This document shows, piece by piece, positions 21,968-30,931 of a stretch of DNA of 64,000 nucleotides (positions within the stretch are counted from its first letter, which is position 1; each line of letters opens with the position of its first letter). The notes beneath the pieces are model-generated. The model worked only from the letters and a program-made list of their open reading frames with translations. It was not told where the DNA came from and did not search any database. The DNA is from Natrinema caseinilyticum (lineage in GTDB: Archaea > Halobacteriota > Halobacteria > Halobacteriales > Natrialbaceae). The translations under genes were made by a program, and so were the position numbers. The DNA is taken from assembly GCF_024227435.1 (NCBI RefSeq), contig NZ_CP100445.1, forward strand, positions 2,291,369 through 2,355,368. The letters are read 5' to 3'.

Positions 21968-22122
21968 TCGCTCGGCTACGAGCGACACCGTCGCCGTGCC
22001 AATCTGCGCCTTCGCCGAAGTAACGTGTCAACCACCGGTGACCCGGAGAAACTGCTACATTCGCGCTGTGTAGTCAGCACGACGGTGGAAACGTATCACC
22101 GCTCGAGGGTTTCACCACGTCC

Positions 22123-22290
22123 CTACTTCCGAGCCGAACGCGCCTCATCGTCGCTGCCTTCTCGAGGATCGTCCGCGAGTTCGGAGACCCCTTCGGATAC
22201 CATCCGTGCGTTGCCACGTTCCACGAGACGACCAAGCCGGTCACGCACGTACCGCAGACTGGAGCCTGGAGCCGGCGACGAACGGCGCGG
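22123..22290 (-). pseudogene. Remnant of a winged-helix (PhiH1 repressor-like) regulator
   Basis: The last 45 or so codons of a minus-strand frame encode LRYVRDRLGRLVERGNARMV, then SEGVSELADDPRE and an acidic tail ending at 22123. This resembles the recognition helix and wing of phage PhiH1-repressor-like winged-helix proteins (YVxxRLxRLxEHG...YELxDDPRE). No start or N-terminal half is found upstream, so it is read as a decayed tail. Confidence 0.35.
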
Positions 22291-22400
22291 TTACGACCAG
22301 CGGACACCGTGGTGAGGCGTCCTGGCTGGGACACACAGCGCCTCGACGCACTCGAGGCGAAAAACGCCGAGCGAGCGACTACGCCGGCGCTACTCGGTTT

Positions 22401-24677
22401 CTAGCTGACAGACACTGACGTACTCGAGGTCTGTGAGTTACCGTCCTCGTCTTCTTGATGCTGCGTCTGTGAGGCCTCGACCTCGTCACCCTCCGAGGCG
22501 GTGACGTCCGTCGATTGAGACTGGCTCATTCCGTCGTCGTCGGCAACCTGGGACTGGTCTTGTTCGACTTCGGAAGCTGACGGGGTATCCTCGGACTCTG
22601 ATTGGGTGTCCGCGGCATCGTCGCTCTGCGAGATGGATGCTTCCTGACTGAAGTCTTGTTCGATGCCGTCACCCACGATCACCTGTTCTAGCGATTGATC
22701 GATGGTTGCGCTCTGTTCCGTGTCGCCGTCTCCATCTTGGGATGCGGATTGGTCGATTTCAGCGCGTTGGTCTCCGTTCTGCTCGTTGTCGGTACCGTCT
22801 ACGGTCTGGGTATGGTTCTGGTCGATTTCGGCCTCCTGACCGATATTCTGTTCTTCGTTGCTGTCGTCTGCCTGCTGTGCAGCATCTTGGTTGATGTCAC
22901 TGTGCTGTGACGAATTTTGCTCGTTGTCGGTACCGTCTGCGGTCTGGGTCTGATCCTGGTCGATTTCGGCTTCCTGTCCGATATCCTGATCGTTGTCGCT
23001 GTCGTCTGCCTGCTGTGCAGCGTCTTGACTGATGTCACTACGCTTCGTCGCGTTTTGCTCGTTGTCGAACCCTATCGCAGTCTGGCTCTGGCTGCCATCC
23101 TGGCCGCTGCTCTGATCGACGTTCTGTTCGTTGGTGGTCGCGTTACTCTCTTCACCATCACCAACACCGAGGAACCCGTCTTCGCCTTCAGCTGAACTCT
23201 CGACGTCCTGGTCGACGTTCTGGTCGGCGGTCTGTTCGCTCTCGGCGGTTTGGTCGTTGCCGCTACCAAACTGTGCAACCTGGGTCTGACTGCTGTCCTG
23301 GTCGCTCTCCTGTGATGCACGCTGATCGTTCTCGGTGGCGTCACTCTCCGCGTCACCGCCGACGCCAAAGACGGCGTCACCATCGTCGGCCGAACTGGCG
23401 ACACTCTGATCGACGTGCTGGTCGGCGGTCTGTTCGTTCTCGGCAGTCTGGCCGTTGCTCTCGTCCGCAGTTTGGCTCTGGTCGCTGTCCTGGCTGCTCA
23501 CCTGTGACGCACGCTGGTCGTTCTCGGTGGCGTTACTCTCCGCGTTGCCGCCACCACCCAGGATGGCGTCACCACCGTCGGCCGAACTGGCGACGCTCTG
23601 GTCGACGTTCTGGTCGGCGGCCTGTGCGTTCTCGGCGGTTTGGTCGTTGTTATCGAACTGGGCAAATTGGCGCTGATCGCTGTCCTGGCTGCTCGCCTGT
23701 GACGCACGCTGGTCGTTCTCGGTGGCGTCACTCTCCGCGTCACCGCCGACGCCAAAGACGGCGTCACCACCGTCGGCTGAACTCTCGACGCTCTGATCGA
23801 CGTGCTGGTCGGCGGCCTGTGCGTTCTCGGCGGTTTGGTCGTTGTTGTCACCTTGTGCGGTCTGACTTGGATCGAATCTGCTATCCTGGCTGCTCACCTG
23901 CGACGTACTCTGGTCGTTCTCGGTAGCGTCACTCTCTGCGTCACCGCCGACGCCAAAGATGGCGTCACCACCGTCGGCCGAACTGGCGACGTTCTGGTCG
24001 ACGTGCTGGCCGGCGGTCTGTTCACTCTCGACAGTTTGGTCGTTGTCGCTACCGAACTGTGCAAACTGGCGCTGTTCGCTGAACTGGCTGCTCGCCTGTG
24101 ACGCACGCTGATCGGTCTCGGTGGCGTCACTCTCCGCGTTACCGCCGACACCAAAGATGGCGTCACCACCATCGGCTGAACTCTCGACGTTCTGGTCGAC
24201 GTGCTGGTCGGCGGCCTGTGCGTTCTCCGCAGTTTGGTCGTTGTTGCTGCCGAACTGTACCTGCTGGAGCTGATTGCTGTCCTGGCCGCTCTCCTGTGAC
24301 GCACGCTGGTCGGTCTCGGTGGCGTCACTCTCCGCGTCACCGCCGACACCAACGATTCCAGTACCGTCCTCACTGGAAGTGGTGACGGACTGGTCGATAC
24401 CCTGTATACTCTCTTGTATCGATTGAGCTTCCTGTGAGTTGTCTCCAACGTTGTTTCGCGATCTATCAAGATTCTGTTCGATCAGCTGGGTGAATTGTTG
24501 TACGGTATCCTCACCCTCGTCGATCGAGTTGTACTCTTGTTCCGGCTCTTGCACGGCCGAGTCGTCGGCTGCTGCCGTCATTGCGACGCTGCCGGCGATC
24601 ATACCCGTTAGCACGAGCAGGGAGATCAATCCGACTGCAATCCGCCTGGGAAATCGGTTTTTCGTACTCGTATCCAT
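22401..24677 (-). CDS. Exported Gln/Asp-rich repeat protein, possible curli-like fibre protein
   Basis: A 758-residue secreted protein. Residues 1-36 form a Sec signal peptide (RRIAVGLISLLVLTGMIAG), so ATG at 24677 is used. The mature protein is almost entirely repeats, very acidic, rich in Gln, Asp, Ser and Ala and with no Cys. About seven repeats of 64-67 residues carry FGVGGDAESDATENDQ and then many xxxQ tetrads. Five 23-residue repeats with NEQN and EIDQ motifs follow, then a Ser/Gln/Asp tail. No membrane anchor is seen at the C-terminus. Regular Gln/Asn spacing resembles curlin and beta-solenoid repeats, hence the fibre suggestion, which is inference. Confidence 0.75.
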   Translation of the reverse strand: MDTSTKNRFPRRIAVGLISLLVLTGMIAGSVAMTAAADDSAVQEPEQEYNSIDEGEDTVQQFTQLIEQNLDRSRNNVGDNSQEAQSIQESIQGIDQSVTTSSEDGTGIVGVGGDAESDATETDQRASQESGQDSNQLQQVQFGSNNDQTAENAQAADQHVDQNVESSADGGDAIFGVGGNAESDATETDQRASQASSQFSEQRQFAQFGSDNDQTVESEQTAGQHVDQNVASSADGGDAIFGVGGDAESDATENDQSTSQVSSQDSRFDPSQTAQGDNNDQTAENAQAADQHVDQSVESSADGGDAVFGVGGDAESDATENDQRASQASSQDSDQRQFAQFDNNDQTAENAQAADQNVDQSVASSADGGDAILGGGGNAESNATENDQRASQVSSQDSDQSQTADESNGQTAENEQTADQHVDQSVASSADDGDAVFGVGGDAESDATENDQRASQESDQDSSQTQVAQFGSGNDQTAESEQTADQNVDQDVESSAEGEDGFLGVGDGEESNATTNEQNVDQSSGQDGSQSQTAIGFDNEQNATKRSDISQDAAQQADDSDNDQDIGQEAEIDQDQTQTADGTDNEQNSSQHSDINQDAAQQADDSNEEQNIGQEAEIDQNHTQTVDGTDNEQNGDQRAEIDQSASQDGDGDTEQSATIDQSLEQVIVGDGIEQDFSQEASISQSDDAADTQSESEDTPSASEVEQDQSQVADDDGMSQSQSTDVTASEGDEVEASQTQHQEDEDGNSQTSSTSVSVS
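22722..23066 (-). repeat. Five tandem 69-bp (23-residue) repeats
   Basis: Within the repeat protein, five consecutive 23-codon units start at about 23066 and run to 22722. Each unit begins with an acidic pair and EQN or DQD, then xxQ, an EI-D-Q or DI-S-Q block, and ends DGT or DDS. Units 2 and 4 (IGQEAEIDQ) and units 1 and 3 (DAAQQADDS) are most alike, suggesting duplication of a two-unit block. Confidence 0.7.
23070..24377 (-). repeat. About seven near-identical repeats of 190-200 bp
   Basis: DNA-level direct repeats with a period of 192-201 bp. The segment ggtcgttctcggtggcgtca or a close variant recurs near 23330, 23517, 23710, 23910, 24110 and 24308. Each unit encodes about 65 residues. 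Units differ mainly in a short central stretch, as expected for repeats kept alike by recombination. Confidence 0.75.
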
Positions 24678-27274: not shown

Positions 27275-28456
27275 TCAAAAACCGAATATCGGGACGAATC
27301 GGAACGTGAGGTAGGCACCGACGGTCGAGAGAGCCGGGACGACGTTTTGCATGAGGATGACGCGAGCCGTCGTCGACGGATCGAACAGGTCCGACGCCTG
27401 CGGGATGTCCTCGGGTTCCTCCTCGCCGATCTCGGGGGACTGTTCGCCCTCCTCGTCGGCGGTCAGCGCCCCGACGGAGACGGGGGGCTGTTCGCCCGCG
27501 CGGACGCCGGAGAGCGTCGTCGTCCGGGTCGCTCGCCCCCAGCCCAGGCCGACGATGCTCATCGTCGCGATGACGACGAAACTCGCCGGGATGCCGATCC
27601 ACGAGAGGGTGACGACGATTCCCGAACTGATGACCGCGACGACGATCGCCGCGGTCAACGGCAAGTTCGTGATGTCGCTCCCGAGCGTATCGAGGGTTCG
27701 ACGCGCTATCGTGAAGCAACCGACTGCTACCGCCGCCGAGCCGATCAGGATCAGCGTCGTCATGTCGACGTCGCCGGTGCCGTATATCGGTGCGATCGCG
27801 TTTGCGATGTTGCTCGTCCCCGACGCGAAGCCCATCAGACAGCCGATTGCGACGACGATCAGCGCCCCGGTGATCTCCCGTCGGGTGGCCCCGGCGCCGA
27901 ATCTGAGTCTGGGCGCAACGCCCGACCGATCGACCGTGACCATCGGTCGTCCGTCCCGGTTCCCTTCGATGGCGATCCAGGCGTTGATCCGCGGATAGAA
28001 GTACCGTCCGACCACGCCGGCGACCCAGAAGCCGGTGATCGGTGCGACGACCCACCAGATGACGATTTCGCCGAGCACGTCCATGTTGAGTTCGCCGGTC
28101 GCAAAGCCCAGTGCGGCGATGGCCCCGACGGCGGTCATCGACGTCGAGGCGGGAACGCCGGCGTAGTTGCCGACGAACAGCGCGCCGCCGATAAAGAACA
28201 GGACGGCGGCGTTCGTCCGAAGTGTAAAGACCGACGTATCTGCGACGAGTTCCGTCCCCAGCGTGTCGACGACTTGCGGGCCGATGGTGTAGGCCCCGAT
28301 GAAGAAGAAAATCGACATCAACCCCGCCGCCATCACCTTGGTGATCACGTTGGCCCCGACGGCCGGCCCGAACGCTGGGCCGGTGGTCGAGCCCCCGATG
28401 TTGTACCCGACGAAGATCGCCGTGAGGATTCCAACGATAAGCAGTACTTCCGGCAC
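27275..28456 (-). CDS. PiT family inorganic phosphate permease
   Basis: Cation-coupled phosphate permease of 393 residues with about ten helices. The two inverted PiT signatures are present: GYNIGGSTTGPAFGPAVGAN near the N-terminus and GFASGTSNIANAIAPIYGTG in the second half. A soluble acidic loop (EGEQSPEIGEEEPEDIP) precedes the last helix. GTG at 28456 is the start, with TATA gtacttttac at 28481-28490. It is a paralogue of the permease at 29729-30907, with which it shares the acidic loop. Confidence 0.92.
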   Translation of the reverse strand: MPEVLLIVGILTAIFVGYNIGGSTTGPAFGPAVGANVITKVMAAGLMSIFFFIGAYTIGPQVVDTLGTELVADTSVFTLRTNAAVLFFIGGALFVGNYAGVPASTSMTAVGAIAALGFATGELNMDVLGEIVIWWVVAPITGFWVAGVVGRYFYPRINAWIAIEGNRDGRPMVTVDRSGVAPRLRFGAGATRREITGALIVVAIGCLMGFASGTSNIANAIAPIYGTGDVDMTTLILIGSAAVAVGCFTIARRTLDTLGSDITNLPLTAAIVVAVISSGIVVTLSWIGIPASFVVIATMSIVGLGWGRATRTTTLSGVRAGEQPPVSVGALTADEEGEQSPEIGEEEPEDIPQASDLFDPSTTARVILMQNVVPALSTVGAYLTFRFVPIFGF

Positions 28457-28492: not shown

Positions 28493-28678
28493 CTATTCGC
28501 GGCCGTTCTGGCGCGCCGTCGGCCAGTCGTAAACCGATCGCCACTCGTCAGCGGCAACTCGCTCGAGGTCCGTCCCGACGGCCGACGTGCGCTCCCAGCG
28601 CAGACTCGATTCGAGTCCCTCGAGACGAGCGTACCCGGAGGCGCTCGCCGGCATCCCCGCGATCCCAAAGAATTTCAC
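28493..28678 (-). CDS. Small hypothetical protein
   Basis: A 61-codon frame starting with GTG: VKFFGIAGMPASASGYARLE, then a Trp-containing segment (LRWERTSAVGTDLERVAADE) and DWPTARQNGRE before the stop. The residue mix, helix pattern and codon use look genuinely coding, unlike the other frames here. It lies immediately upstream of the PiT gene on the same strand. No domain or function is recognised. Confidence 0.5.
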   Translation of the reverse strand: MKFFGIAGMPASASGYARLEGLESSLRWERTSAVGTDLERVAADEWRSVYDWPTARQNGRE

Positions 28679-28814
28679 CGAGTCAAACCGTGTGTTAGGA
28701 CAGTATGTTGCTACGCGTACCCACGGTTCGGTCGGACGACAGTCCGAGACCCGGATGCGTTCGCTCGGGGTCGAAGCACGCGCTGATCGCCGCGGGCCCG
28801 GACGTTGTTTGGCG

Positions 28815-29252
28815 ATGAGACCGGCGCGCGTCGACGCGGTCATCGACCTCGCGTACGGCGGATTGATCCTTCTCTCGATCGCGCTGATCGCGACGCTCGA
28901 TATTCGGGTCGGCCTGACGTTCGGGCTGGGTGTCTTCGCGTCGTACATCCTCCACGTCGTCTGGAAGATGGCACGGTTCGATCCCGACTGGATGACGTCG
29001 ACCGTGCAGGAAACCGTCGAGCAGTCGGTCGAGGAGACCGTCGGCGACGCCGTCGAGCAAACCGTAAGCGACACCGTCGAAGAGACGGTGGACCAGACGG
29101 TCGGTGAAACGGTCGAGGAGACGGTTGGCGAGCAACTGGAGGAGGTACAGGCGAAGGTCGAATCCGTCGACGAGCGCGTCGACCGCCGCCCTCGAGAGGA
29201 GGAAGTCGAGGAGATCATCGAGGAGTCGGTCGAAGACGAATCGGAGCGCTAG
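28815..29252 (+). CDS. Membrane protein with long tetrad-repeat helix
   Basis: A 145-residue protein. Residues 1-55 contain two membrane helices (LAYGGLILLSIALIATLD and a second). The rest is a long acidic helix in which every fourth residue is Val or Leu for about eleven tetrads (ETVEQSVEETVGDAVEQTV and onward), followed by a charged heptad-like tail. A strict 4-residue period is unusual for a coiled coil. It sits between two PiT genes and is convergent with the UspA gene. Function unknown; a structural or oligomeric membrane role is likely. Confidence 0.7.
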   Translation: MRPARVDAVIDLAYGGLILLSIALIATLDIRVGLTFGLGVFASYILHVVWKMARFDPDWMTSTVQETVEQSVEETVGDAVEQTVSDTVEETVDQTVGETVEETVGEQLEEVQAKVESVDERVDRRPREEEVEEIIEESVEDESER

Positions 29253-29728: not shown

Positions 29729-30907
29729 TTAGACGACTCCGGGGAGGATCGAGAAGAAGGCGTACGCGAGGACCGTCGACATCGACGGGCCGATGATCCA
29801 CATGGAGACGTACTTGATGATCGCGCGAGGGTTGAAGAGGTCCGCGCCGCGAAGCACCTCTTCGGGCTCTGGTTCGCCGATTTGAGGGGCCGTCTCGTCC
29901 GCTTTCTCCTCGGCGACGATGGCACCCAGTTCGATCTCGGGGTTCTCCACGTCGCGGGTGACCGCCTCGCGGACCGTGATCGGACGGGTTGCCCGGCCCC
30001 AGCCGATGCCGACGATCGTCATCACCGTCGCCATCACGAGGCTGATCGGGATGCCGGCCCACGAGAGCACTGTCGTGATCGTGGACGCGGTCACCATGAC
30101 GAACAGCGCCGCGAGCAGCGGGATGTCGCTCAGTTCGCCGCCGACGGAGTCCATCGTTCGCCGAGCGATCGTGAAGCCGCCGAGGCCGATCGCGAGCGTG
30201 GCGACGACGATGGCGGTGTCGGCGTCCAGTCCGCTGGCGGTCCCGACCAGCGGTGCGGCGGCGTTCGGAACGTTGCTCGCGCCGGCGCTGAACGCCATGT
30301 AACAGCCGATGACGAGGACGGCGACCGTCGTGACCAGTTCCCGCCAGGTCGTGTTCGGACCGAGCGCCGGCGTCGGAACCGCGCCTCGGCGATCGAGACG
30401 CAACAAGGGTCCCTCGGACTTCTCGATTTTCACTCGCCGATTGATCCACGAATAGATGTAGCGGCCGATCAGTACGCCGATCCAGAGGCCGATGATCGGC
30501 GTCACGATCCACCAGGAGATGATCCCTGCGATCGTCTCGTAGTTGAGCGTCCCGGTCGCCAGTCCGAGGCCGGCGATCGCGCCAACGGTCGTCATCGACG
30601 TCGGGACCGGGACGCCGAAAACGTTGGCGACGAGCATCCCCAGGCCGATGAAAAAGAGGACCGCGACGCCGGCAGTCAGCGTGAGGTCCGTCGTGATGAT
30701 TCCCTCGCTGAGCGTGTCCATCACGTTCCGACCGACGGTCCAGCCCCCGAAGAAGACGAAGAACGTCATGACCGCCGCCGCCGTGGTCTTCGTTACGATC
30801 CCGGCGCCGACGGACGGACCCCACGTGATCCCCGTCGACGAACCGCCGATGTTGAAGCCGACGAAAACCGACGCGACGACACCGACCAACAGCACGGTTT
30901 CGACCAT
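29729..30907 (-). CDS. PiT family inorganic phosphate permease (second copy)
   Basis: A 392-residue phosphate permease, paralogous to the one ending at 27275. Signatures are GFNIGGSSTGITWGPSVGAG and AFSAGASNVPNAAAPLVGT. The loop AEEKADETAPQIGEPEPEEV before the last helices parallels that of the paralogue. ATG at 30907 (MVETVLLVG) is used instead of an in-frame codon five residues earlier, because the TATA element lies 30 nt upstream. UspA follows, probably co-transcribed. Confidence 0.92.
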   Translation of the reverse strand: MVETVLLVGVVASVFVGFNIGGSSTGITWGPSVGAGIVTKTTAAAVMTFFVFFGGWTVGRNVMDTLSEGIITTDLTLTAGVAVLFFIGLGMLVANVFGVPVPTSMTTVGAIAGLGLATGTLNYETIAGIISWWIVTPIIGLWIGVLIGRYIYSWINRRVKIEKSEGPLLRLDRRGAVPTPALGPNTTWRELVTTVAVLVIGCYMAFSAGASNVPNAAAPLVGTASGLDADTAIVVATLAIGLGGFTIARRTMDSVGGELSDIPLLAALFVMVTASTITTVLSWAGIPISLVMATVMTIVGIGWGRATRPITVREAVTRDVENPEIELGAIVAEEKADETAPQIGEPEPEEVLRGADLFNPRAIIKYVSMWIIGPSMSTVLAYAFFSILPGVV

Positions 30908-30931
30908 CGATCGACGGTACACTACTGTCGG

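Follow-up and report, generated by a model that had tools for sequence, protein, structure and literature searches.

A candidate extracellular fibre protein built from Gln-ladder repeats in haloarchaea

Among the closest described counterparts of the protein analysed here are the curli proteins CsgA and CsgB. The minimal curli repeat has been defined as X6QXGX2NX10 (PMC3521004), and curlin repeats recur with a period of 23 ± 5 residues (PMC10192328). A single archaeal protein whose repeats resemble those of curli is mentioned in passing by Dueholm et al. (PMC3521004). Biofilms of Haloferax volcanii bind Congo red and thioflavin T, and an unrelated amyloid candidate has been proposed in Haloferax (PMC4180959). 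This dye staining makes amyloid-like material plausible in haloarchaea, although nothing ties it to the gene described below, and no such gene is named for it in the literature that we found.

The gene lies in a 64,000-nucleotide stretch of the Natrinema caseinilyticum genome, hereafter the window, and encodes a protein designated P0001. We give a probability of about 0.5 to the reading of P0001 as a secreted structural protein of acid-coated beta repeats that stacks on itself into an extracellular fibre or sheet.

Repeat architecture of P0001

The gene occupies positions 22401–24677 of the minus strand, with an ATG at 24677, a stop codon at 22401–22403 and 758 codons ahead of the stop; a genome search found it to be the only copy in its own genome. 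Residues 1–37 (24567–24677) form a putative signal peptide of the kind that also leads the relatives' chains, consisting of KNRFPRR, about 24 mainly apolar residues and a terminal MTAAA. Both the signal peptide and its cleavage near residue 37 were read by eye rather than taken from a prediction program, and this leader is the Sec signal that the initial annotation had reported. The same annotation described a protein without Cys or visible anchor, and both descriptions hold: the mature part contains 0 Cys, and inspection of the C-terminus revealed no transmembrane or sorting segment. Mature P0001 is 15.7% Gln and 14.8% Asp, carries 172 acidic (D/E) against 13 basic (K/R) residues, and has few large hydrophobic residues.

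An N-terminal region (residues 38–100, 24378–24566) precedes the repeats. Six complete long repeats follow at residues 101–493 (23199–24377), with lengths in order of 65, 66, 67, 65, 64 and 66 residues. Each consists of an A unit of 24 residues (NDQRASQESDQDSSQTQVAQFGSG), a B unit of about 23 residues (NDQTAESEQTADQNVDQDVESSA) and a Gly-rich insert of about 19 residues such as GGDAVFGVGGDAESDATE, and a partial seventh, Gly-rich insert (residues 494–515, 23133–23198) runs into the short repeats. The short-repeat array (residues 516–652, 22722–23132), which is matched by a family profile at E 1.4e-27, contains five units of exactly 23 residues (516–630) and one of 22, alternating between A and B. 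The unit of 22 is already degenerate and is followed by another of 19; degenerate repeats and an acidic linker fill residues 653–703 (22569–22721). The chain closes with a predicted four-strand beta unit at residues 704–758 (22404–22568). The earlier count of about seven repeats of 64–67 residues and five strict 23-residue repeats is thereby borne out as six plus a partial seventh, and as exactly five.

Autocorrelation against shuffled sequences supports both periods. Identity at lag 66 in the long-repeat region is 0.336 compared with 0.104 ± 0.016 in shuffles, and identity at lag 23 in the short repeats is 0.397 compared with 0.112. At lag 46 the short repeats reach 0.581, compared with 0.10–0.11 in shuffles, and in all three cases none of 2000 shuffles reached the observed value. 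The higher identity at lag 46 than at lag 23 indicates that the short units are of two alternating types, a feature absent from the initial annotation. Since the 66-mer is A plus B plus a Gly-rich insert and the 23-mers are A and B, the two repeat classes of P0001 are one. Gln pairs at a spacing of four residues number 50, where 17.4 ± 3.5 are expected (0 of 2000 shuffles reach this), in keeping with the reported Gln at every fourth residue. Motifs at fixed spacing in the 23-mers were likewise recovered, with NEQN, NDQD or EEQN at the unit start and I-x-Q at +10/+12.

Relatives and gene neighbourhoods

Sequence and profile searches of Pfam, NCBIfam and the PDB returned no fitting family for P0001, with no Pfam match at E ≤ 1. 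The homologue search proposed in the initial annotation showed that P0001 does not stand alone. With a profile of the 23-residue unit that took in rows from genomes G035 and G098, 12 of 391 haloarchaeal genomes, spread over 7 genera and 4 families, proved to carry relatives, and a profile of the long repeat (A2) matched nine haloarchaeal genomes. P0001 as the sole query reached G035 at 3.2e-20 and G098 at 2.0e-9, while blastp with SEG linked the gene to loci L070–L072 of genus g6. Two of the relatives have names, Halostella pelagica DL-M4 and Halobacteria archaeon HArc-gm2; in the Halostella protein (L081, 8001–10712), the units within residues 60–375 are richer in Val/Ile/Phe. The match at 1.4e-27 cited above was obtained with a profile (A10) in which P0001 itself is one of 31 rows.

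One clear ortholog was found, in G035 (locus L006), another genus of the same family. It has a similar leader, the same long repeat with its Gly-rich insert and the same short repeats, and shares with P0001 the sequence EQDQSQVADDD near the C-terminal end; its gene contains two runs of 100 N in the assembly. When the chains of the relatives, each a long single chain of about 40 units, are cut at Asn, they resolve into a near-perfect alternation of an A unit of 24 residues (N-x-Q-x3-Q-x3-Q-x3-Q-x-Q-x-V-x-D-G-D-D) and a B unit of 23 (N-x-Q-x-A-x-S/N-x-Q-x3-Q-x3-Q-x3-G-x-x), of which a 25-residue form with V/I/L/F also occurs. P0001 has the same N-x-Q...Q...Q...Q-x-Q...G-D-D units at a period of 23–24 residues, together with the signal peptide read by eye and the acidic outer positions that account for its 172 D/E against 13 K/R. 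Judged by its sequence, P0001 is a member of a scattered, hitherto unnamed haloarchaeal family of Gln-ladder A/B repeat proteins.

The 28 congeners searched contain no relative, and the flanks of the gene are conserved there piecemeal; the gene is missing from all of them and is thus dispensable. Plasmids and GTDB contigs yielded no relatives of P0001. Viral contigs, searched with a 258-residue piece of P0001 and with the family alignment, yielded none either, and so give no sign of a viral Gln-ladder family. A Gln-ladder gene in G299 (L078, 8017–9414) is broken by in-frame stops beside an open FG-GAP neighbour and is an apparent pseudogene; relatives have open copies.

The genes adjacent to the family members differ between lineages, which makes an adjacent partner a loose family criterion. 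In six of six loci (L007, L068, L075, L078, L081 and L082, with Pfam run on one; the G275 locus is of another type and is excepted), from families f4, f7 and f17, a gene for an FG-GAP protein with a Gln-ladder tract of its own lies upstream of the Gln-ladder gene on the same strand, and this protein may be an anchor or nucleator. Q-C-Q motifs recur in these partners. In genus g6, the gene near the Gln-ladder gene encodes a V/A/Q-ladder protein whose C-terminal tail is basic (L069 3351–4670, L070 9904–11184, L071 8975–10408 and L072 9331–10782); its L072 copy matched no NCBIfam family. The neighbouring gene in G035 encodes about 209 residues, and the best match to it elsewhere is in G055, where two nearly identical small secreted Gln/Asp proteins stand in tandem beside that relative (L098, 388–1126). 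The P0001 genome has no match to any of these three partner types.

The P0001 gene is surrounded by genes for an alpha/beta hydrolase, an HTH_10 regulator, a VTT protein, a ferredoxin and phosphate transporters, and no assembly gene is recognisable among these genes of the window. The two PHO4 phosphate transporter genes (27275–28456 and 29729–30922) have a UspA-looking gene in between. A 221-residue ORF on the plus strand (28587–29249), with no Pfam family, encodes a membrane segment and, after it, short TVEETV/QTV repeats, which probably form a coiled coil. Just downstream of the P0001 gene, positions 22053–22295 recur in the same genome, where two of the copies are about 5 kb from each other, as well as in several congeners, and this segment appears to be a dispersed element or gene remnant.

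Conservation pattern and predicted structure

To describe the conservation of the units, 30 six-unit windows from the two named relatives were aligned to P0001 (the 31-row alignment A10). In the first unit, Gln is invariant at positions 2, 6, 10, 14 and 16; G at unit position 20 is invariant and N at position 0 nearly so, while D, E, S or G may stand at the odd positions. Even positions have a mean entropy of 1.09 bits and odd ones of 2.06 bits, values that describe a pattern rather than independent sampling, since the windows are overlapping pieces of proteins from two genomes. A beta strand with one Gln face would be expected to show just such an even/odd alternation.

Two AlphaFold2 runs were made. 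Residues 364–758, modelled with four rows (A5, a shallow alignment with partly misaligned rows), gave an unstructured array with pLDDT of about 40, followed by four-stranded beta structure in the last 55 residues at 82–89. Residues 516–758, modelled with the 31 rows of A10, gave strands of 14–20 residues (3–19, 24–43, 46–65, 70–89, 92–111 and 116–133) that turn at G-x-x-N, with pLDDT of about 50 in the array and the same C-terminal beta unit at about 72–87. Neither run contains a helix. A coiled coil was considered and is ruled out by the Gln spacing of four rather than a heptad, by the Gly/Asn turns and by this lack of helix. Of the two outcomes that the initial annotation had set against its structural model, coiled coil did not occur, while disorder appeared with the shallow alignment and keeps some probability, as the array stayed at pLDDT of about 50 with A10.

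The low values of the four-row run could be taken to mean that P0001 is a disordered, acidic, Gln-rich polymer, a hydration or ion sponge or a flexible matrix filler folded only at its C-terminus, and both the excess of acidic over basic residues (172 to 13) and the scarcity of large hydrophobics agree with this. However, such a polymer needs neither invariant Gln at even positions over periods of 23–24 residues nor A/B alternation, nor a Gln ladder kept across four families, and AlphaFold2 assigned beta strands once the repeats were properly aligned. We therefore regard disorder as unlikely. That P0001 has beta structure is quite probable. The exported beta repeat protein of the initial annotation retains the signal peptide (by eye), the conservation alternation and the helix-free strands in its favour, and is weakened by array pLDDT values of only about 40 to about 50. 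Together the data strongly suggest units of beta strands joined by G-x-x-N turns, with a Gln (plus Ala/Val) face opposite an Asp/Glu face, the latter, again as strongly suggested, suited to high salt.

The beta-solenoid of the initial annotation fared less well. Foldseek searches of the PDB with both models gave no significant match, with low TM-scores and E values never under 0.009, and the nearest matches of the low-confidence 31-row model were mostly long-stranded antiparallel sheets, also without significance. As for a left-handed parallel beta-solenoid, the strands stand at pLDDT of about 50, at which the topology is unreliable.

In a self-stacking fibre or sheet, P0001 would be exported by the Sec pathway and fold outside the cell, where the Gln side chains of successive strands would stack as hydrogen-bonded ladders. 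Molecules would then join through their Gln faces, by pairing or stacking, into an extracellular fibre or sheet with a role in matrix, adhesion or biofilm. In relatives, the neighbouring gene, whether for the FG-GAP protein with a Gln ladder or for the V/A-ladder protein, may supply the anchor or nucleator.

Comparison with curli and other repeat proteins

The initial annotation had called the fibre curli-like, and this stands as a resemblance and falls as a membership. The period of P0001 agrees with the approximately 23 residues of curlin (the lag-23 identity of 0.397), a G-x-x-N turn is present, and the N-x5-Q spacing occurs 17 times compared with 7.2 in shuffles. On the other side, PF07012 matched neither P0001, nor its long relatives, nor any protein of its own genome. 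The proposed profile–profile check, hhalign against CsgA/CsgB and haloarchaeal curlin, gave probabilities below 1% and no significance, repeats of biased composition being a hard case for such comparison. The QxGx2N motif occurs 3 times in P0001 (0.6 in shuffles) and 0–2 times in the long relatives, compared with 5 times each in CsgA and CsgB and 4–10 times across CsgA, CsgB and the haloarchaeal proteins of g28 and G275 described below. CsgG (PF03783) was not found in the P0001 genome. Archaea such as this host lack the outer membrane in which CsgG sits, and its absence is for that reason weak evidence. On these four results, P0001 is not classed as a curlin.

True curlin repeats do occur in haloarchaea. 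In g28, a genus of the same archaeal family, four genomes (G055 at L008/L079, G236 at L009/L080, G328 at L010 and G385 at L011) encode secreted proteins that pass the PF07012 cut-off, with curlin units of 19 residues such as NNDADVDQRNKAFVDQDGK; this suggests that such fibres are possible in the haloarchaeal class. Three neighbouring secreted repeat proteins of G275 (L077, 6712–9874) have units of about 21 residues, such as NYQDQYQDNDQKQKAKQSGAF, with Gln at the core positions and QxGx2N in 4, 4 and 9 copies. From their sequences, they have an intermediate look, with curlin on one side and the Gln-ladder family on the other.

The intermediate look of the G275 proteins and the presence of true curlin-repeat proteins in g28, added to the shared period, turn and N-x5-Q spacing, would fit a P0001 that is a strongly diverged homologue of CsgA, a parallel beta-solenoid of 22–24 residues per turn in which the core Ala/Val have become Gln. 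Against this stand the PF07012, hhalign, CsgG and QxGx2N results above, and an antiparallel meander would account no less well for the 46-residue alternation and the AlphaFold2 model; we consider such an origin improbable. Judged on sequence, P0001 is curli-like in principle only, with Gln where curlin has its hydrophobic core.

Alternatively, the protein could be a monomeric, non-polymerising surface stalk or adhesin, resembling a single-layer beta-sheet rod. The long single chains of about 40 units in relatives and the confident C-terminal unit are compatible with this, as is a weak PDB similarity to the engineered single-layer beta-sheet repeats of Borrelia OspA (2fkg, 2fkj), which share the 23-residue period. 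That phmmer match is marginal (E 0.009) and probably driven by composition, and the Lys/Glu hairpins of the engineered protein are unlike P0001, so no homology is claimed. P0001 moreover has no anchor or binding domain, and pairing would be needed to keep its polar Gln faces from exposure. A stalk or adhesin is thus also improbable.

If P0001 instead forms the self-stacking fibre or sheet, one might tentatively go further, with the odds leaning against it, and see in it an archaeal functional amyloid of a class of its own: a Gln-faced "polar zipper" beta-fibre, acid-coated for concentrated salt, whose anchor or nucleator partners differ between lineages, and convergent with or long diverged from curli. 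Named members of the Gln-ladder family occur in culturable species, and the family provides direct candidates for amyloid genes. Should the Gln faces stack, they would offer a natural and useful glutamine-ladder beta structure and a design for a salt-proof fibre.

Set beside known systems, P0001 shares with CsgA and CsgB secreted repeats of mean period 23, the G-x-x-N turn, the N-x5-Q spacing and an alternate inward ladder. It differs from them in having Gln rather than hydrophobic residues at core positions, very acidic outer positions, an A/B alternation with a 46–47-residue period and most units without QxGx2N, as well as in the missing PF07012 match and CsgG; chains of its family are also much longer than E. 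coli CsgA. The g28 curlin proteins are, like P0001, secreted and haloarchaeal, with an alternating A/V/Q ladder and Q-x-G-x-x-N turns, but they are short, have 19-residue repeats, pass PF07012 and are unmatched by the Gln-ladder profiles. By description, the sheath protein SH of Methanospirillum hungatei is set apart by its cap domain, its two six-stranded sheets and its assembly into rings, and resembles the fibre proposed for P0001 in being an archaeal extracellular, amyloid-like beta-arch polymer (PMC10593813).
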